The notes under the pieces were generated by a model. It saw only the letters and a program-made list of their open reading frames with translations. It had not been told where the DNA came from and did no database searches. Both the position numbers and the translations under genes were made by a program. From Herpetosiphonaceae bacterium (GTDB lineage Bacteria > Chloroflexota > Chloroflexia > Chloroflexales > Herpetosiphonaceae), in the NCBI GenBank assembly GCA_013538855.1, contig JABXJS010000079.1:1-64000 (forward strand): a stretch of 64,000 bases of DNA, in the 5' to 3' direction. Shown here piece after piece: positions 4,674 to 18,843 of this stretch. Each line of letters opens with the position of its first letter. Position 1 is the first letter of the stretch.

Positions 4674-5543
4674 TTATGGCTCTGGTGTAGGCGTTGGCGT
4701 GACCGCCCCACGGTAGTACGGCTTGGTCGAACGAACATCCAAAAAGATCCAGCTTGTATCGTTATCCAACGAGTCAACAACCGCCAGCTTGGTATCGAGG
4801 GGCATGCGCTCATCGGCCATGCGCCCCAGGGCGATTTTACGCTCGCCGTTGTAGATCATGATGCCGTAGTATGGGTCCCACTCGTAGCGGCTCGGCGTCC
4901 AGCCAAGCTCCGCCGGGATCCGCAGCTGCAGCGTTTGCACCAGCTCCAGCGCGTCGGAGTCGATCTGATCGCCAGCGCTCAGCGGCGTCTGGCGCGTATC
5001 GTAGACGACCAGCGCCGACGTAAGCGCAGCCGTGTTGGTGATGCGCGCCGTGCCAAGCACGCGGCCATCGGCGGTGACCTCGTAGTTGGTGCCCTGGCTG
5101 CTCCACAGAATGGCGGCCTCGCGCTCCTGCACGCGAATGAGTACGCGATCCGGCAGCAGCACCGTCACGGGAGCAGTGACAACATAGGTGCTAGAGGCCA
5201 CGCGCGCTGCAACAGCAGCAGGATCGATGCGCCAGATCGACTGCTCATCGACCGCCGCCAGCTCGCGAATCTCCGCGCTGCTCAGCGAGCGGTTGCCGCT
5301 GATCTCGACCGAGTGCACCACGAAGCGCTCTGAGCGAAACACATACCAGATCGCCCACAGACCAAACAGCACCAGGATGAGCGCGCCGAGCTTGCCGTTG
5401 CGCACCATCATGCGCACAATTAGCGTGAAGCTCGGCCGCACCATGGGATCGCGGCGGCGCAGCTGGCCGACGGTGGAGCGTGGGCGCGCGCCACGACCAG
5501 CGAAGCGCGAGCGCGTTTTACGTGGTGATGTGTCAGAACTCAT
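4674..5543 (-). CDS. ftsQ: Cell division protein FtsQ/DivIB
   Basis: Bitopic divisome protein that recruits FtsL, FtsB/DivIC and the septal synthase. The 289-residue sequence has a basic cytoplasmic N-terminus (about 1-50), one membrane segment (about 52-70), a POTRA domain beginning at VHSVEISGNRSLSS (about 77-145) and a beta domain. The C-terminal tail is TPTPTPEP, a Pro/Thr linker-like ending. The ATG overlaps the murB stop by four bases (ATGA), which indicates translational coupling. The family is poorly conserved; the call rests on POTRA, topology and position. Confidence 0.88.
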   Translation of the reverse strand: MSSDTSPRKTRSRFAGRGARPRSTVGQLRRRDPMVRPSFTLIVRMMVRNGKLGALILVLFGLWAIWYVFRSERFVVHSVEISGNRSLSSAEIRELAAVDEQSIWRIDPAAVAARVASSTYVVTAPVTVLLPDRVLIRVQEREAAILWSSQGTNYEVTADGRVLGTARITNTAALTSALVVYDTRQTPLSAGDQIDSDALELVQTLQLRIPAELGWTPSRYEWDPYYGIMIYNGERKIALGRMADERMPLDTKLAVVDSLDNDTSWIFLDVRSTKPYYRGAVTPTPTPEP

Positions 5544-6475
5544 AGGGTTTGTCCGTGCTGCTGCAAGGAAACGGTCGCATCAGCGCCAATCACGCGCACC
5601 TCTAGCTCTAGCTCCACGCCTAGCTGGCGCAGCACCTCGCTGCGCATGATCTCGGCCAGGCGCAGCACATCGGCGGCGGTGGCCCCGCCAACATTGATGA
5701 TATAGTTGGCGTGCTTCGCGGCCACCTGCGCGCCGCCGACGCGGCGGCCTTTCAGCCCGGCCTGATCCAGCAGGAAGCCGGCCGTAGATCCAGGCGGGTT
5801 TTTAAATACCGAGCCGCACGATGAGCCAGCTGGTGTGCGGCTCTTCCGCGCCGCAGCGATCTCGGCGATGCGAGCGGCCAAGCGCTGTGGATCATCGCGC
5901 TGGAGGCGCAGCGTTCCAGCCAGCACCAGCGGCAGCGGCTGACCGCTGCTATGCAGCTGCTTGAGGCGACTCGTGCGATAGCCAAACGCCAGCTGCTCCG
6001 GCGTCCACAGCTCAACTGCGCCGTTAGGCATCAGCATGGTCGCCTCGGCGAGCACCGCCGCCGTCTCGCCGCCGTAGCAGCCAGCATTGCCATAGACCGC
6101 GCCGCCCAGTGTGCCAGGCAGACCCTCGGCCCACTCCAGCCCAGCCCAGCCCTGAGCGGCGACCTTGCGCGCGGTGCCAGCCATGGGCGCGCCTGCACCG
6201 AGCTGGAGCAGCGCCGTGTCGCCAGCGACCGTGAGGTGCTGGGCGTTGGCACGGTAGCGCACGACCAGGCCCGGCCAGCCAGCATCGCTCATCAACAAGT
6301 TGGAGCCGCCGCCAAGCACAAACAACGGCTGATCATGCTGCTGTGCCCAGCGCCAAGCGCGGCGCAGCTCATCGGGGGAGGTGGCGGTAGCGAACCAGCG
6401 CGCCGGGCCACCGATGCGCCAGGCAGTGTAGGGAGCCAGCGGCTCGTGCTCTTGCAGAATCAGTTCAGCGCTCAC
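5540..6475 (-). CDS. murB: UDP-N-acetylenolpyruvoylglucosamine reductase MurB
   Basis: FAD enzyme that reduces UDP-GlcNAc-enolpyruvate to UDP-MurNAc with NADPH, in the cytoplasm. The 311-residue protein shows the FAD-binding VLGGGSNLL (about residues 53-61), GLPGTLGGAVYGNAGCYGGE (118-137), the catalytic serine in SCGSVFKNP (about 219-227) and the AKHANYIIN stretch of type II MurB. A glutamate in LEVRVIG near the C-terminus is a candidate for the second proton donor. It overlaps the preceding TPR gene and the following ftsQ by four bases each, so the three are translationally coupled. Confidence 0.96.
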   Translation of the reverse strand: MSAELILQEHEPLAPYTAWRIGGPARWFATATSPDELRRAWRWAQQHDQPLFVLGGGSNLLMSDAGWPGLVVRYRANAQHLTVAGDTALLQLGAGAPMAGTARKVAAQGWAGLEWAEGLPGTLGGAVYGNAGCYGGETAAVLAEATMLMPNGAVELWTPEQLAFGYRTSRLKQLHSSGQPLPLVLAGTLRLQRDDPQRLAARIAEIAAARKSRTPAGSSCGSVFKNPPGSTAGFLLDQAGLKGRRVGGAQVAAKHANYIINVGGATAADVLRLAEIMRSEVLRQLGVELELEVRVIGADATVSLQQHGQTL

Positions 6476-7749
6476 GCCTGACCTCCTAGATCATTGAGCT
6501 GGCGGCGCAGGCGCTGCTGCTCCTCGTAGTGGCCCAGCTGCTGCCGAATAGCCAGGGCAGCGCTCCAATGCTGCTGGGCAGCGTGGAGATCATTCCAGTC
6601 ATGGGCCAGCGTTCCTAAGCGTTCGTAGATCAAAGCAATCCCTAACTGATCATTGAGCTGCCGGGCATAGTCAAGCGCCTGCGCGTAGTGGTTGCTCGCC
6701 TCGCCATAGTTGCCCAGCTGCTTATAGACATCGCCAAGGCGATTGTGCACCGAGGTTAGCCCGTGCACATTTTGTAGCGAGCGCTCCAGCTGCAGCGCCT
6801 GGCCATAGGCGTCGATGGCGGTTTGCGTATCGCCGCGCACCGTATGGATCATGCCCAGCACTGTGTAGGCGCGGGCCATGCCGACGTTATCGTTGGCTTG
6901 CTGGCGCAGCAGCAGGCTTTCGGCCTGGCAGCGCAGCGCTTTTTCATACTCGCCAAACTCAATATAGGAGAGCGCGAGCTTCTCCTGCACAATCGCAATG
7001 CCGAGAATACCCGGCAGATGCTCTTCGATTTCTAGCGCGCGCTCGTAGTGCGCGGCCGCCCGCTTGCCTGCGCCCAGAATGCGGTAGACATCGCCGATGC
7101 TGGTGATGATCTTCGCGATCGTCAGGCGATCATCGACGACGACCCCTTTCTCGTGGGCAGCATTGTAGTGCTGGATGGCCTCCATATGCCGCCCCTGCAT
7201 CTGCTGTATTTTGCCGAGATGAAACAGCGCCTCGGCCTCCAACAAGAGCAGCTCGTGCTGGCGGGCAATATCAAGGGCGTGCTGCAGCGACTGCTCGGCA
7301 GCGGCAAAGTCAAACAGCGCCCGCTGCGAGCGTCCGAGGGCCAGCCAAGCTGCGCCCTCGGCAGTTGGTCGCTGGGTCTCGTGGGCCAGCACCTGCAGGC
7401 GCTGCGCATAGTAGAGCGCTTCTTCGTGTTGGCCGCCGAAGTCCAGCACAGTCCAGGCCAAGCTATAGGTGCGCAGCGCAAACTGGGCCTGCTCAGCCAG
7501 ACTCAGGCGGCTTAAGTGCTCGAGCGCACGCTCGCACCAAAAGCGCGCCTCGTAGATATTTTGCTGCGCGATGCGCTCCTCTGCCTCATTGAGGGCTGCA
7601 TCGATCGCCTCGGGCCATGATCGTGCCAGCGCCCAATGCCAAGCCAGCACCCCGTAAAATCCCTCGGGCAGCGCCCCGCCCTTGTAGCGCGCCTGGAGCT
7701 GCTCGGCGGCATCGCGGTGGAACTGGCGGTAGGGCTCATCTGCAATCAT
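6472..7749 (-). CDS. Tetratricopeptide-repeat protein inside the mur cluster
   Basis: A 425-residue soluble protein made almost entirely of TPR units; at least eight are readable (for example YNAAHEKGVVVDDRLT, AAAHYERALEIEEHLPG, AIDAYGQALQLERSL and ASNHYAQALDYARQL). There is no signal peptide or catalytic domain. The repeats resemble those of the C-terminal halves of Chloroflexota LuxR/AAA regulators and LGN-like adaptors. It overlaps murC upstream and murB downstream by four bases, so it is made together with these essential enzymes. A scaffold role for the Mur enzymes is possible but is only inferred from position. Confidence 0.85.
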   Translation of the reverse strand: MIADEPYRQFHRDAAEQLQARYKGGALPEGFYGVLAWHWALARSWPEAIDAALNEAEERIAQQNIYEARFWCERALEHLSRLSLAEQAQFALRTYSLAWTVLDFGGQHEEALYYAQRLQVLAHETQRPTAEGAAWLALGRSQRALFDFAAAEQSLQHALDIARQHELLLLEAEALFHLGKIQQMQGRHMEAIQHYNAAHEKGVVVDDRLTIAKIITSIGDVYRILGAGKRAAAHYERALEIEEHLPGILGIAIVQEKLALSYIEFGEYEKALRCQAESLLLRQQANDNVGMARAYTVLGMIHTVRGDTQTAIDAYGQALQLERSLQNVHGLTSVHNRLGDVYKQLGNYGEASNHYAQALDYARQLNDQLGIALIYERLGTLAHDWNDLHAAQQHWSAALAIRQQLGHYEEQQRLRRQLNDLGGQA

Positions 7750-12178: not shown

Positions 12179-13030
12179 CTATGCAGTGAGCAGTCTAAGC
12201 TCGTTCAGGTACTCTTGGCGCAAATTGCGCATCTCAAACAGCACCTGCGGATCAGCCAAACGCTGCTGGTGGACAAACCACGCGCCAGCCAGCGCCACGG
12301 CGACCACCACCACCACGCCAAGCCAGCGCCACGACGGCGCATAGTCCGCCACAATCTGCCGATTCCAGCCATCGGAGACGAGCCGCAGCTGCGGAGCCAG
12401 CAGCAGGCCAATCAGCACACCGCCGGTCAGGCCACCGATATGCGCTAAGTTGTCGATGCCGCCAATCGAAAAGCCGATAAATAAGTTCAGCACCGCCAGC
12501 ACCACGATCTGGCGCAGATTGCGGCGCGCAAAATCGCCAAGCACCGAGCGCGCATTGAACGAGAAGGCTCCGAGCGCGCCCATCAATCCAAATATAGCCC
12601 CAGAAGCGCCAATCGCTGGCGACTGAATCAACCCAAACATATACGAGGCGACCGAGCCGACCAAGCCTGCGCCAAGGTAGATCGCCAAAAAGCGCAGCGT
12701 GCCAAACAGCCGCTCCACCTCTGGCCCCAAAATGTACAAGGCGTAGGAGTTAAAGGCGAGGTGGATCAGGCCGCCGTGCAAGATCATCGCTGTGAGCAGT
12801 CGCCACCACTGGTTGTCAAGATCAATCAGCGGCGAGAACTTCGCCCCAAGCCGAATGAGGATAATCACATCGTCGATGCTGCTGCCCATCAGCGAAAAAC
12901 CCAGCAGCAGCGAGCCTAAGAAGACCAGAATATTCAGGCCAAAGATGCCCCAGGCCAGCCACACCCGCGGGTGCAAAAAGTTCAGGCGGATCGGCGGCGG
13001 TGCCGAATACATTGGCGGCTGCTCAATCAT
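12179..13030 (-). CDS. Rhomboid-family intramembrane serine protease
   Basis: A 283-residue membrane protein of the rhomboid family, which cleaves peptide bonds within membranes. The catalytic Ser is in GASGAIFG (Ser143) and the catalytic His in [11 protein letters not shown] (His197). The L1-loop [20 protein letters not shown], with the HxxxN arrangement, is present. There are six or seven membrane segments, plus a C-terminal membrane helix (about 225-250) and a charged tail. It overlaps the murD stop by four bases and precedes ftsW by 37, so it belongs to the dcw operon. This is an unusual place for a rhomboid; the substrate is unknown. Confidence 0.9.
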
Positions 13031-14331
13031 AATTCACTCACTATGCGACGAAATTCCTCTCCGCGATGAAACTCGTTGCGAAACATTCCAAACGAGGCCG
13101 CCCCTGGCGAGAGCAGCACGGTATCTCCAGGCTGTGCTTGGCTCGCGGCCGCCTGCACTGCTGCGGCAAAGTCAGCGTAGACGCTGGCTGGCGTATCAAG
13201 CTGCGCCTGTAGCTCGGCGGTGGCGGTGCCGTCCAGCAGCACCAGCCCGCGCAGGCGCTGCTCGGCGCGCGCTGCCTTGAGCGCAGCGACCAGCGGCTCC
13301 CAAGCGAGCTTCTTATCAGCACCGCCAGCGATCAAGATGAGCGGCGCGGCGAGCGAGCGCACAGCGGCGGCAGCAGCGGTGGGCGTGGTGGCGGCGGTAT
13401 CGTTGATGAAGCGCACGCCGTTTAGCTCGCGCACCAGCTCCATGCGGTGCTCAACGCCGGTAAAGCTGCGCAGCGCACGCTCGATGGCTGCGCGCGGCGC
13501 ACCAAAGCTTGTGGCCAGCGCCGCCGCCGCCGCAATGTTCGCAGCGTTGTGGCTGCCGATCAGCGCGCTTGGCGGCCACTGCGCGGCATCAGCGGCGCTA
13601 AACCACACAACCTGGCCAGGCGCAAGCGGTGCCCAGGTGCTGACAATCGGATCGTGGCGCGGCAGCACCACCAGGCCGTCGGCGTTTTGATGCACAAAAA
13701 TCTGCTGCTTGGCCGCGCCGTACTCCTCCATAGAGGCATAGCGATCCAGATGATCCGGCGACAGATTGGTCACGCAGGCGTACTGCGGGCTGAGGCCAGC
13801 CGCGCCCACGCCCTCCAGCTGCCACGATGATAGCTCAAGCACAACTGGTGTTGTCGGCGTGATGCGCGGCAGCTGCTCCAGCGCGGACACGCGCAGATTG
13901 CCCGCCACAACGGTGTCAGGCCAGTGCTCGCGCAGCATCGCCCCCGTCAGCAGCGTCGTCGTGGTCTTGCCTTTGGTGCCAGTGATGCCGATGATCGGGC
14001 CAGGGCACAGCCGAAAGAAGAGCGTCATCTCCATCTCGATCTGGGCACCAGCCTGGCGGGCGAGCTGCAGAAAGCGCGACTCACGCGGCACGCCTGGGTT
14101 GCGCACCACGATGTCCGCATCCGTAAAATCTTGCTCGCGGTGCTCGCCGAGCACAAAGGTGATCGGGTACTCACGCAGCGCATCGAGCGATGGCTGGAGC
14201 TGCTCGGCGCTACGGAGATCGGTCACGGTGACGATCGCATCGTGCTGCGCCAGAAACCGCGCCACGCCCAGGCCGCCGCCGTGCACGCCGAGGCCCATCA
14301 CCGTCACCCGCTTCCCCTGAAGATTAAGCAT
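13027..14331 (-). CDS. murD: UDP-N-acetylmuramoyl-L-alanine--D-glutamate ligase MurD
   Basis: Adds D-Glu to UDP-MurNAc-L-Ala. The 434-residue protein has the N-terminal [10 protein letters not shown] loop, the intact P-loop GTKGKTTT (about residues 118-125), [18 protein letters not shown] with the metal-binding His, [15 protein letters not shown] and the C-terminal GVEHRMELV and [13 protein letters not shown] motifs, ending with [22 protein letters not shown]. It shares one base with the mraY stop upstream and overlaps the rhomboid gene downstream. Confidence 0.97.
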
Positions 14332-15488
14332 CAGCGGCCCTCCTGCGTTGGCGTTACAATCACCGTCGGCGTCAGCTGATCATCGGATGAGCTGAAGGGC
14401 TGGTTGTTTGTCGACAGCTCCAGGCCCTGCTTGGCTGGCAGCGGCGGATTGAGCGCCAGCGACACGCCGACCATCGCAGCAATAATGCCGACCATCACAA
14501 AACGCTGCACCACCTGCATCTCCGACCAGCCCTTGAGCTCGAAGTGGTTGTGCAGCGGGGCCATGCGAAAAACACGCTTGCCAGTGCCAGTCTTGATGCG
14601 CGTATACTTGAAGTAGTAGCGCTGAATGACCACTGCGGCGGCCTCGGCCACAAAGACAACGCCTACCACCGGTAGCAATAACCAAGCCTGCGAAATCAGC
14701 GCCACAATTGCCAGCGTTGCACCGAGCGCCAGCGCGCCTGTATCGCCCATGAACACCTGTGCCGGATGGGCGTTGAACCACAGAAAGGCCACGCACGCGC
14801 CACAGGCGGTGAACGAGTAGGTCACGAGGTAGTCGAAGCCATAGACAAAGGCGATCACGCCAAAGGCGGCAAAGGCGATCGCCAGCGTCCAGCCCGCCAG
14901 GCCATCGAGGCCGTCGGTGAAGTTGACCGCATTGGCCATGGCGACGATGAGGAAGGTGGCGATTGGAATATACCAGTAGCCGATATCGACCACGCCATAG
15001 AACGGCACAATCACGTCGCCGCTGTTCTGCAGGCCATAGGGCTTGGGCAGATACAGGCCCAGCGAGAGCAGCAGCGCCAGCATCACCAGCCAGAACATCT
15101 TGGCGCGCTCGGTCATGCCGAAGGTCGCCGAGCGCACTTTGGTCAGCGAGAGGAAATCATCGAAGCTGCCGAGGATGCCGTAGCCGATCAGCGCCGCCAG
15201 CGGCAGCAGCATCGAGAGGCGGCCAACAAGATTGAATACGACGGTCAGCACCACAATCGAGAAGATGATCATCACGCCGCCCATCGTCGGCGTGCCAGTT
15301 TTGACCTGATGCGTCTGCGGGCCATCGACGCGAATCGACTTGCCGATGTTGTGGTCGCGCAGCCAGCGAATCCAGCGCCGCCCGATCACGAGCGTGAGGA
15401 TAAACGCGGCAGCAGCCAGCAGCAGCGCCTCGGCTAGCTTGAGCACCAGTGCCCGCTGAATGTCAATAACAACCTGCTGCTCGTTCAC
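14331..15488 (-). CDS. mraY: Phospho-N-acetylmuramoyl-pentapeptide transferase MraY
   Basis: Integral membrane enzyme that transfers phospho-MurNAc-pentapeptide to undecaprenyl phosphate to form lipid I. The 385-residue protein has ten predicted membrane segments, [10 protein letters not shown], the Mg-binding [11 protein letters not shown], the [10 protein letters not shown] loop and [14 protein letters not shown], where the common HHH motif reads HNH. The last ~40 residues after the final helix are polar and extra. GTG start with GGAGGGG upstream; GTGA overlaps the stop of the MurF-like gene. Confidence 0.96.
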
Positions 15489-16951
15489 GCGCGCCCCTCC
15501 TGGTCGCTAGTTTGTACGCGCTCCACCACCGAGCGCAGCAGCGCCGAGCGCACACCTTTGATCAGTACATAGTCGTCTGGGCCAACGGTCGCCTTGAGCT
15601 GGGCCAGCAGCTCATCGGCGCTGGCGCTGAAATGAACGTGATCAACGGCCATTCCACGCTCAAGCGCTTCGAGGCCAATCCAGCGCGCTGGCTCACCGAG
15701 CACGAACACGTGGTCGAGAACATCGGCCGCGCGCGCCCCAACCGCCCGATAGGACTCCTCTTGCAGCTCAGCGTCCAGCGCGCCAAAAATAGCGCAATGC
15801 CCGCCGCTCAGCTCAGAGAGCAGCGTCAGCGCCGCAATGCTCGACATCAGCGATGCGCTGTAGGTATCCTCAATCAGTGTCGCACCGCCGATCATGGGGT
15901 ACGAGAGCAGGCGCAGCTGCGCGCTTGTGCGCAGCCCTTCGATCAGCGAGTCCCAGTCAAGGCCCTGAACCAGGCCCACCGCCGCCGCCGCCAGCGCGGT
16001 ATGCACGCTATGCAGGCCGATCAGCGGCAGCTTGACGTGCGAGGTCTGCTGACGGTAGTGCACATCGAAGGTGATACCATCGAGGCCGCGGCTCTCGATA
16101 TTGTTGGCCCACAGATCGGCGCTCGGATCGAGTCCATAGGTGAACACCTGGGGCACAGCCTGCTCAGCCAAGCGCTGCACGCGCTCATCATCGCGGTTGA
16201 GGATCAGCCATGCATCGGCTGGCAGCTGCTGTACAAACGCGTGCTGCGCCTGCCAGACAGCCTCCAGCGAGGCGTGCGGCTCCAGATGCAGCGGCCCAAT
16301 CTGGGTCACGATAACGATCTGTGGCTGCGCCATCGCATAGAGAAGCTGGGCATCCTCCTGCGCATCGACGCGCAGCTCCAGCAGCGCATTTTGCTGCTGG
16401 GTGCTGAGGCCGAGGATCGCCACCGGCAGGCTGCGCAGGGTGCCGGTGCCGCGTGGCGCTTTGTAGGTGCGCAGCGTTGGCGACAGCATGGCCGCCAGCA
16501 CCTCCTGCGTGGCAGCCTTGCCCACCGTGCCCAGCACGGCCACCAGGACCAGATCAAAGCGCTGCCGCTGGCGCAGCGCCAACCGCTGTAGCGCCGCCAA
16601 TGGTTCATCGACGCTGATCAAAAACACGGCGTCGGCTGGCGCATGGGTGGGCCAGATACCTTGCTCGGGGTCAATATCAACACAGGGGCGATCAAGCCCA
16701 AGGCTGCCGTGGTCGGCGACACGGCCACGCTGCACCAAGGCGGCCCGCGCCCCCCGCGCTGCGGCGGCGGCAATAAACGCATGGCCATCGCCGCGCTCGC
16801 TCGGCAGGGCGACGTACAGACAGTCGAGCGTGGCCTCGCGCGAGTCGATACATGCGCCGCTTAGGCGCACAGACGCAAGGGTACTCGGCAGCTGGTGCGC
16901 CGCCGTTAGCTCCAATTGAACACCAACGATAATCTGTTCAAGACTAATCAC
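15485..16951 (-). CDS. MurF-like Mur ligase homologue with altered active site
   Basis: A 488-residue protein with the length and three-domain layout of MurF, which adds D-Ala-D-Ala to the UDP-MurNAc-tripeptide. However, key residues differ. The P-loop reads GTVGKAATQE (about 141-150): the lysine remains but the Mg-binding Thr/Ser next to it is Ala. The usual NIGEAHLE motif reads QIGPLHLE (about 217-224), HNVxNAxAA reads HSVHTALAA (314-322), and DSYNANPxS reads DTYSASLMS (362-370). The C-terminal VLIKGVRSALLRSVVE still resembles the MurF KGSR motif. I checked the P-loop codons directly. GTG start with GGAGGAA. It is the only gene between ftsI and mraY, where murE-murF normally lie. It may be inactive, structural or changed in mechanism. 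Confidence 0.75.
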   Translation of the reverse strand: MISLEQIIVGVQLELTAAHQLPSTLASVRLSGACIDSREATLDCLYVALPSERGDGHAFIAAAAARGARAALVQRGRVADHGSLGLDRPCVDIDPEQGIWPTHAPADAVFLISVDEPLAALQRLALRQRQRFDLVLVAVLGTVGKAATQEVLAAMLSPTLRTYKAPRGTGTLRSLPVAILGLSTQQQNALLELRVDAQEDAQLLYAMAQPQIVIVTQIGPLHLEPHASLEAVWQAQHAFVQQLPADAWLILNRDDERVQRLAEQAVPQVFTYGLDPSADLWANNIESRGLDGITFDVHYRQQTSHVKLPLIGLHSVHTALAAAAVGLVQGLDWDSLIEGLRTSAQLRLLSYPMIGGATLIEDTYSASLMSSIAALTLLSELSGGHCAIFGALDAELQEESYRAVGARAADVLDHVFVLGEPARWIGLEALERGMAVDHVHFSASADELLAQLKATVGPDDYVLIKGVRSALLRSVVERVQTSDQEGRA

Positions 16952-17000
16952 ACTGTTCCTCCGCCATCACGTACAGGCGGCGGTATTTTAACAGAAATAT

Positions 17001-17028
17001 CGGTGTTTCCCCGTGAGGTGAAACACCG
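17001..17028 (-). other. Hairpin between ftsI and the murF-like gene
   Basis: Nine-base arms (CGGTGTTTC at 17001-17009 and GAAACACCG at 17020-17028) lie 9 bases after the ftsI stop. The following minus-strand sequence ATATTTCTGTTAAAAT is AU-rich but not a clean U-tract. It may act as a partial terminator or mRNA-processing/stability element within the dcw transcript. Confidence 0.5.
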
Positions 17029-17037
17029 CTGCATCAA

Positions 17038-18843
17038 TCACCGCTGACAATCAGCGATCAGGCTGGGGTCGGGCGGGATGTGGTAGTGGGTCAGCAGCCG
17101 CTCCATCACATGGGCATAGACCGGGATAGCCAGCGATCCCCAGACATCAGACGGCCGATCAAGCTTGACCAGCACGGCGAACTTTGGCTCCTCGACCGGC
17201 CCAAAGCCAATCACCGAGCCGATTGTTGCGTTCTCGTAGCCGCCATTGCCATCAGGGATCGAGCTCGTGCCGGTCTTGGCGGCAACATTGTAGCCAGGCA
17301 CAAGCGCAACGCCGCCGCTGTTGCCGTTTGGATCATAGTAGCCCTCGTAGAGGCACTTTTCCCACATGCCCTGCGCGAAGGCATAGCTGTTGTTGGCGGT
17401 GCGCACCATCATCGGCTTGATCAGCTCTGAGACCTCCGGGTCGATCACTTGGCGGATGACCTTTGGCTCGATGGTGTGGCACTCTTCGCCCTCGCACCAC
17501 TGCTTAATCAGATAGGGCTGCATCAGCTTGCCGCCGTTGGCCACCGCCGCAATCGCCCGCAGGTGCTGGAGCGGCGTCACCGAGATGCCCTGGCCATAGC
17601 CATTCGTCGAGAGGACAATCGGCCGCCAGTCCTCGGTGCTATCGGGCCACTGGACCATGCCTGCGCCCTCGCCGTTGATCTCGATGCCGGTCGGCTCGCC
17701 ATAGCCAAAGTCATGGACGCCCTGGTAGAAGTGCTCTGCTCCGGTCATTTCAGCAAACTGGAGTGCGCCCACGTTCGATGAGTGCAGCAGTACATTGGCC
17801 GGATTCATCGGCGCGTGGCCGGCACCGTTCCAGTTGGAGCAGCAGCCGGGGGCGCGGGCGATATAGCCAGGATCATCGACCACCGTGTCAGGGGTAAAGG
17901 CGTGGTTCTGAAAGCCGATGGCCAGGTTGATCACCTTGAACGTCGAGCCAGGCTCGTACTGATCGCTCACCGCTGGATTGCGGTTGTACACCTCGGGCGA
18001 GTACTCGGTATAGCGATTGGGGTCGTAGAACGGCCAGCTAGCCATGCCGAGCACAGCGCCGGTTTGCGGATCGAGCACCAGGATTGTGCCGCCGCTGGCG
18101 CTCTTGGCACCGATCGCCTGCGCCAGCTCCTCCTCGATGATGCGCTGCACGCCAGGGTCGATGGTCAGCGTAATTGCTGCGCCATCGCGGGGGGCCTGCA
18201 CCTCGGGCGGGTCGATCCAGATGGGATTGGCGGCGGAGTCGATCTCGGCCTCCATCGAGCCGGGGACCCCGCTGAGCAGCGCGTTGGCATAGCCCTCGAC
18301 ACCGCTGATGCCGACATTCTCGTGGTTGGCCACGCCGACGATGCTAGAGGCGAAGGTGCCGTGCGGATAGACACGGATCGGCTCAGGGGTGAGCACCAGG
18401 GCCGACTCGTCGAGCTGGCGCACCTGCTCGCTGGCCTCAGGCGTCAGGCGGCGGCCCAGCACCACATACTCGCGGGTCGTATCGGTGAGCAGCTGCTTGA
18501 CCTCGCTTGGCTGACGGCCAACCAGCGGAGCCAGCACCAGCGCTAGCGTATCGACGCGCTCAGGATCGATCAGGCGCGGCGTCACGCCCAGGGTGTCGCG
18601 ATCAACATTCATCGCCAGCACACCGCCATCGCTGTCGCGGATGATTCCGCGCTGCGGCAGCAAGGTGCGCTTTGATTGCACCTCGGTGGCGGCCAAGCCC
18701 GAAAGCTCAGCGTGGCGCACCACCTGCACATCAAATAATTTTCGGCCATTCGCCAGCGCCAACACCAAACACGCCAGCAATATCATATTGATACGCCAGC
18801 GCGCCAGCGGCGGCGCTGCCGGAGGAGCAGTCCGAGTCGCCAT
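17038..18843 (-). CDS. ftsI: Septal peptidoglycan transpeptidase FtsI/PBP2
   Basis: Class B penicillin-binding protein that cross-links septal peptidoglycan together with FtsW. The 601-residue protein has an N-terminal membrane anchor (about residues 18-33), a dimerisation/pedestal domain, and a transpeptidase domain with SxxK as STFK (about 300-303), SxN as SSN (355-357) and KTGT (523-526). The extracytoplasmic part has several cysteines, including adjacent Cys334-Cys335 and Cys450, Cys455 and Cys497. No PASTA domains are present. GGAGG precedes the ATG. It lies 16 bases after the FtsL-like gene. Confidence 0.95.
   Translation of the reverse strand: MATRTAPPAAPPLARWRINMILLACLVLALANGRKLFDVQVVRHAELSGLAATEVQSKRTLLPQRGIIRDSDGGVLAMNVDRDTLGVTPRLIDPERVDTLALVLAPLVGRQPSEVKQLLTDTTREYVVLGRRLTPEASEQVRQLDESALVLTPEPIRVYPHGTFASSIVGVANHENVGISGVEGYANALLSGVPGSMEAEIDSAANPIWIDPPEVQAPRDGAAITLTIDPGVQRIIEEELAQAIGAKSASGGTILVLDPQTGAVLGMASWPFYDPNRYTEYSPEVYNRNPAVSDQYEPGSTFKVINLAIGFQNHAFTPDTVVDDPGYIARAPGCCSNWNGAGHAPMNPANVLLHSSNVGALQFAEMTGAEHFYQGVHDFGYGEPTGIEINGEGAGMVQWPDSTEDWRPIVLSTNGYGQGISVTPLQHLRAIAAVANGGKLMQPYLIKQWCEGEECHTIEPKVIRQVIDPEVSELIKPMMVRTANNSYAFAQGMWEKCLYEGYYDPNGNSGGVALVPGYNVAAKTGTSSIPDGNGGYENATIGSVIGFGPVEEPKFAVLVKLDRPSDVWGSLAIPVYAHVMERLLTHYHIPPDPSLIADCQR

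Follow-up and report, generated by a model that had tools for sequence, protein, structure and literature searches.

A probably displaced MurF orthologue in the dcw cluster of a Herpetosiphonaceae bacterium has lost catalytic residues and probably persists in a role other than catalysis

The murF gene of the dcw cluster in the contig analyzed here (a stretch of 64,000 nucleotides, hereafter the window) encodes a protein that, judged by its sequence, has lost catalytic residues that its relatives keep, one of the marks of a pseudoenzyme. This dcw MurF is very likely inactive. Its features are best explained if a displaced, catalytically dead enzyme has been caught mid-way and is probably being kept as a non-catalytic protein. 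Retention for a non-catalytic role, which we favor moderately, is a role that we infer solely from constraint, and its simplest form is probably the binding of a UDP-linked precursor or of a dcw partner. MurF is normally essential, and the dcw cluster is one of the most conserved gene clusters in bacteria.

The cluster lies on the minus strand and comprises mraZ, rsmH, ftsL, ftsI, murF, mraY, murD, a rhomboid gene, ftsW, murG, a CvpA-like gene, murC, a TPR gene, murB and ftsQ. The features that define the setting of murF are as follows.

17038..18843, minus strand: ftsI, upstream neighbor of murF (open reading frame and synteny)
15485..16951, minus strand: degenerate dcw murF, 488 amino acids, GTG start (open reading frame, domain, profile and synteny evidence)
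14331..15488, minus strand: mraY, whose start overlaps the murF stop (GTGA) and whose Shine-Dalgarno sequence lies within the 3' end of murF
5540..5543, minus strand: murB/ftsQ ATGA junction, the site of ddl in relatives; ddl is absent from the dcw cluster here

As the earlier note on this DNA held, the frame is open for 488 codons and coupled to mraY: the TGA stop of murF overlaps the mraY GTG start, and the Shine-Dalgarno sequence inside murF reads AGGAGG. The murF start is preceded by a Shine-Dalgarno sequence of its own (GGCGGAGGAACAGTG). Between ftsI and murF (window positions 16951-17041, minus strand) there is a stable, attenuator-like hairpin, CGGTGTTTC/GGAAACACCG, followed by ATATTTCTGTT (z-score of -2.4). 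The genes for the rhomboid-like membrane protein (12179-13030, minus strand) and the TPR protein (6472-7749, minus strand) are recurrent dcw members in this bacterial order.

Gene arrangement around murF is the same in relatives from three families of the order, and the tree groups the window MurF with the dcw MurF of another genome, G043 (100/99). By these lines of evidence, dcw MurF is not a paralogue but is directly orthologous to the canonical MurF of the relatives' dcw clusters, and because synteny and tree both show orthology, "displaced orthologue" is the better name for it. The proposal that the gene is a paralogue, with the true MurF elsewhere, survives only in that the genome does hold other MurF-type genes.

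In position and in Mur ligase domain architecture, dcw MurF is like the MurF family (UDP-MurNAc-tripeptide--D-Ala-D-Ala ligase, TIGR01143), but it differs in falling below the cut-off and in having lost the P-loop Thr, the carbamoylated Lys and other positions invariant in relatives. It scores 236.9 bits on TIGR01143 against a curated cut-off of 288.6; full-length dcw MurF orthologues from the same bacterial family score 374-398 bits. The three-domain Mur ligase architecture is present, with PF08245 and PF02875 above their cut-offs and PF01225 at 18.0 bits, slightly below its cut-off of 21, and the best structure matches are MurF proteins (e.g., PDB 4cvk, 1gg4 and 4qdi). The parts of the protein discussed below are encoded at these positions.

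16610..16951, minus strand: UDP-binding domain at the N terminus, residues 1-114; no change in constraint on the window branch, DSR and DGHxF motifs kept
16508..16531, minus strand: P-loop GTVGKAAT, residues 141-148 (relatives, GSVGKTST)
16280..16303, minus strand: QIGPLHLE, residues 217-224 (relatives, N(V/I)GPSHLE); His kept
16244..16246, minus strand: K236Q, position of the carbamoylated Lys (alignment; role of the Lys, PMC3060825)
15878..16156, minus strand: residues 266-358, a well-conserved segment that includes the lineage-normal HS..T (identity and omega)
15848..15868, minus strand: DTYSASL, residues 362-368 (relatives, DTYNASP)

A search of 82 genomes supplied 64 orthologues from elsewhere in the order, which we aligned with dcw MurF. 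All 64 are canonical, having GSVGKTSTKE or a near variant of it along with the His, the Lys and DDxxNA, and the window copy alone carries GTVGKAATQE, QIGPLHLE, QAQHAF (for AKxEL) and EDTYSASL. The catalytic changes occur in no other aligned dcw MurF of the order. Substitutions on the window lineage include T140L, S142T, T146A, S147A, K149Q, N170G, G194R, N217Q, S221L, K236Q, D361E, N365S, P368L, D391A and E473R. Among them are the loss of the P-loop Thr (GKT to GKA) and, in the A-K-x-E region, the loss of the carbamoylated Lys (K236Q), a residue reported to be essential in MurD, MurE and MurF, although MurC functions without it (PMC3060825). P-loop Lys145, Glu192, His222, Arg347 and Asp362 are kept, and residual activity is possible on that account. 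The pattern goes beyond chance: ten relatives have 173 invariant columns in common, and the window copy departs from them in 45, mostly in the ATP and C-terminal regions. The N-terminal domain has 2 changes in 25 such columns, the central domain 26 in 89 and the C-terminal domain 17 in 59.

Comparison with relatives bears out the degenerate active site that had been noticed from the window alone: the motifs were quoted correctly (GTVGKAAT, QIGPLHLE, HSVHT and DTYSASL), the P-loop Thr is replaced by Ala, and invariant columns have changed. The reading of HS..T as a loss does not hold, as this is the standard form in orthologues (LIGLHSVHTAL) and thus lineage-normal. In DTYSASL, the DT and AS are likewise lineage-normal (DDTYNASP), and N365S and P368L are specific to the window. 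The list of losses was also incomplete, with K236Q overlooked.

Close relatives do carry a canonical MurF at this position, which had been named as grounds for suspecting assembly error. Such an error is not implied, because the substitutions are many, scattered and in frame within an otherwise normal operon. Although the genome is assembled in 285 contigs, a sequencing or assembly artifact or a contaminant contig is scarcely credible in view of dozens of in-frame substitutions, normal codon-position G+C (0.74/0.45/0.76) and flanking genes that have normal identity to relatives and normal order.

MurC and MurD of the same cluster are intact, as had been noted, and MurF alone is accelerated. 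On a tree built from mraY and murD, protein branch lengths for the window lineage are 0.73 for MurF, 0.17 for MraY and 0.21 for MurD, compared with 0.11, 0.10 and 0.20 for the relative G049, indicating an acceleration in this genome that affects MurF specifically.

Selection was assessed with a two-ratio codon model comparing the window branch with the background. Whole-gene omega is 0.29 on the window branch versus 0.089 in the background, values that are approximate in that synonymous change on this branch is near saturation. Neutrality (omega = 1) and equality with the background are each rejected, at 2dlnL of about 16. Omega on the window branch is 0.161 for residues 1-114 (background, 0.139), 0.424 for residues 115-265 (0.077), 0.125 for residues 266-358 (0.064, with the boundary of this segment set after viewing identity along the protein) and 0.464 for residues 359-488 (0.094). 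A common omega ratio across the four regions is worse by 23 log units (3 degrees of freedom), and the pattern persists within the confidence intervals, with three different branch lengths and under another topology. A plain three-domain split, with window omegas of 0.153, 0.300 and 0.371, agrees for the N-terminal domain. The models place the relaxation in the ATP and C-terminal parts, with the UDP-binding N-terminal domain at normal constraint. This domain-selective pattern speaks for purifying selection that would have continued after the catalytic loss, but it is seen on a single branch (one genome of the genus), and its timing relative to that loss is deduced. The claim that the gene is under selection thus holds for at least part of the protein.

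Coupling to the essential mraY could by itself hold open the frame of a displaced, functionless gene in early decay, and this account, which we consider rather unlikely, draws on the GTGA overlap, on the mraY Shine-Dalgarno sequence inside murF, on the elevated omega of murF and on three relatives that have no murF in the cluster. Coupling, however, requires an open frame and not the conservation of residues, and omega for residues 31-114 is 0.087 (confidence interval, 0.04 to 0.15), with the omega of the ATP region rejected there (2dlnL 39); murF also retains its own Shine-Dalgarno sequence. If the excess is read as neutral time, about 0.22-0.37 of the murF branch would have been neutral. With 2.1% of changes forming stops, ~7-10 stops are then expected, and the gene contains none. 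Because the UDP-binding domain and the central segment are under purifying selection, dcw MurF has probably been kept as a non-catalytic binder.

A Mur ligase middle domain occurs in nine other places in the genome, two of them MurF-like. The first, on contig C67, is a MurF-Alr fusion (PRK11930-type; 318 bits), whose MurF domain belongs to the clade nearest dcw MurF. Unlike dcw MurF, it is fused to Alr, has an intact P-loop (GSVGKTST), His and Lys, and is normally constrained (MurF-domain omega of 0.164, versus 0.158 in G049), a comparison on which decay of the fusion in this genome was rejected. It does lack the HN adenine motif. The second MurF-like protein, on contig C269, is membrane anchored (TM-MurF; 210.8 bits on TIGR01143). 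It shares with dcw MurF the Mur_ligase_M and Mur_ligase_C domains and a D-Ala-D-Ala pathway neighborhood, but it has hydrophobic segments for the UDP-binding domain and falls in a separate clade (100/100).

TM-MurF is encoded in an operon (loci L077/L222) between an alpha/beta-hydrolase and a Ddl, followed by an FAD oxidase (ThiO/DAO-like) and a VanX/DdpX-like M15 dipeptidase. Such an operon amounts to a self-contained module to make, attach and cleave D-Ala-D-Ala. Its Ddl is the only one above the family cut-off in the genome, and each of the other eight genomes of the bacterial family has a stronger Ddl. In the three of these genomes examined for it, ddl lies between murB and ftsQ; the window dcw cluster has no ddl, and its murB runs straight into ftsQ with an overlap. 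The cluster has thus been affected in both of its D-Ala-D-Ala genes, ddl being gone and murF degenerate. The absence of ddl and the additional operon for a membrane MurF and a Ddl together supply a reason for the decay of murF.

The closest relatives of the C269 operon lie in other families of the phylum, and its TM-MurF groups with those of families f41 and f10 (100/100). Three genomes of the same order as the window genome (G019, G022 and G023) have a similar operon of hydrolase, TM-MurF and Ddl, and in these there is no murF between ftsI and mraY and no ddl between murB and ftsQ. The tree suggests that the TM-MurF of the window genome and those of these three genomes were gained separately, by horizontal transfer; co-inheritance was rejected, given the placement with f41 and f10.

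TM-MurF has no PF01225 UDP-binding domain, and its first 180 residues include three or more strongly hydrophobic segments. Such segments replace the UDP-binding domain in the C269 protein but not in dcw MurF. A TIGR01143 match above the cut-off is present in 2 of the 38 genomes with TM-MurF (the window genome and G149), and both matches are of the MurF-Alr type, that in G149 as judged by the length of its open reading frame. In the phylum at large TM-MurF is often the only MurF: it is the sole match at E<=1e-35 in at least 22 of the genomes, some of them incomplete. The dcw cluster of family f10 runs murD, ftsW, murG, murC, murB, Ddl, the hydrolase, TM-MurF and ftsQ; at four f10 loci (L250-L253), the TM-MurF in the dcw cluster is the sole MurF-like gene found in the genomes concerned. 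A literature search, with most subscription journals outside its reach, returned no description of such a membrane MurF. TM-MurF may work on a lipid-linked substrate, by analogy with MurT, whose substrate lipid II has no uridine (PMC6085368).

The TM-MurF subfamily of f10, f41 and the window genome lacks the carbamoylated Lys, which, because it is absent, would be dispensable there if these proteins are working MurFs. We considered whether the C269 TM-MurF is dead for want of this Lys and rejected the idea, since the subfamily lacks it even where it provides the sole MurF-like match. That Lys-less TM-MurFs are the only MurF-like match in f10 genomes, that MurC functions without the Lys (PMC3060825) and that Lys145, Glu192, His222, Arg347 and Asp362 persist would also suit an active dcw MurF with altered chemistry or acceptor, which places MgATP without the Thr and the Lys and perhaps ligates another D-dipeptide. 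We regard this as highly improbable: N170, G194, N217 and D391, invariant in relatives, have changed alongside the Thr and the Lys, omega in the catalytic region is up about five-fold over broad stretches, as in relaxation, and the three relatives with a similar replacement operon have dropped murF.

If dcw MurF is a displaced, non-catalytic protein, the acquired operon of hydrolase, TM-MurF and Ddl would now make and attach D-Ala-D-Ala, and the MurF-Alr fusion could be another ligase. Of the resident dcw genes, ddl is gone outright and murF has lost the Thr and carbamoylated Lys that position MgATP, so that ligation would be gone or nearly so; murF still has its own ribosome site and its coupling to mraY. 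From the sequences we infer a loss of activity, a takeover by TM-MurF and/or MurF-Alr and a non-catalytic role; the working MurF would then be TM-MurF, without the carbamoylated Lys, and/or MurF-Alr, without the HN adenine motif. The UDP-binding domain missing from TM-MurF is precisely the one retained in dcw MurF, and one could imagine, as a quite improbable extension, that TM-MurF adds D-Ala-D-Ala to a lipid-linked tripeptide at the membrane and that the ATP-dead dcw MurF serves as a non-catalytic precursor-binding partner beside MraY. If true, the end of peptidoglycan precursor synthesis would be reordered. With a TM-MurF that is associated with Ddl, lacks the UDP-binding domain and is often the sole MurF-like gene, the order of the last precursor steps becomes testable. 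With some relatives keeping the gene intact and others lacking it altogether, this degenerate but partly conserved copy makes up a natural series for the replacement of an essential cell-wall step.

Among the structure matches of dcw MurF is the MurE-like subunit of the plant plastid-encoded RNA polymerase (PDB 8w9z chain N). This subunit places a Mur ligase fold in a structural setting outside peptidoglycan synthesis; unlike dcw MurF, it is eukaryotic, MurE-derived and of unrelated origin. MurT of MurT/GatD is a relative of the Mur ligases that has taken on a new task in peptidoglycan synthesis, but it is an active amidotransferase on lipid II (PMC6085368), and dcw MurF shows the reverse, with the UDP-binding domain kept and the ATP site lost. 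In Helicobacter pylori, MurF occurs in the Csd5/CcmA shape complex (PMC9507126), a precedent for MurF in envelope complexes, although it is there an active, essential precursor enzyme. A literature search for Mur ligase pseudoenzymes, with most subscription journals outside its reach, found none.

The MurF domain of MurF-Alr has decayed independently in several lineages whose dcw MurF remains canonical, the mirror image of the situation in the window. With MurF-Alr decayed in those lineages and dcw MurF here, decay runs in opposite directions between lineages. In genus g7 (L098, L099, L100 and L154-L158), MurF-Alr has lost the His/Lys region; in g32/g29, its His is replaced by Arg and its Lys by Phe or Tyr; and in g8, its Lys is replaced by Phe. 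In each of these groups, dcw MurF is intact. Within family f4, a decayed MurF-Alr MurF domain occurs at L088, L092, L142, L148, L149, L152 and L153.
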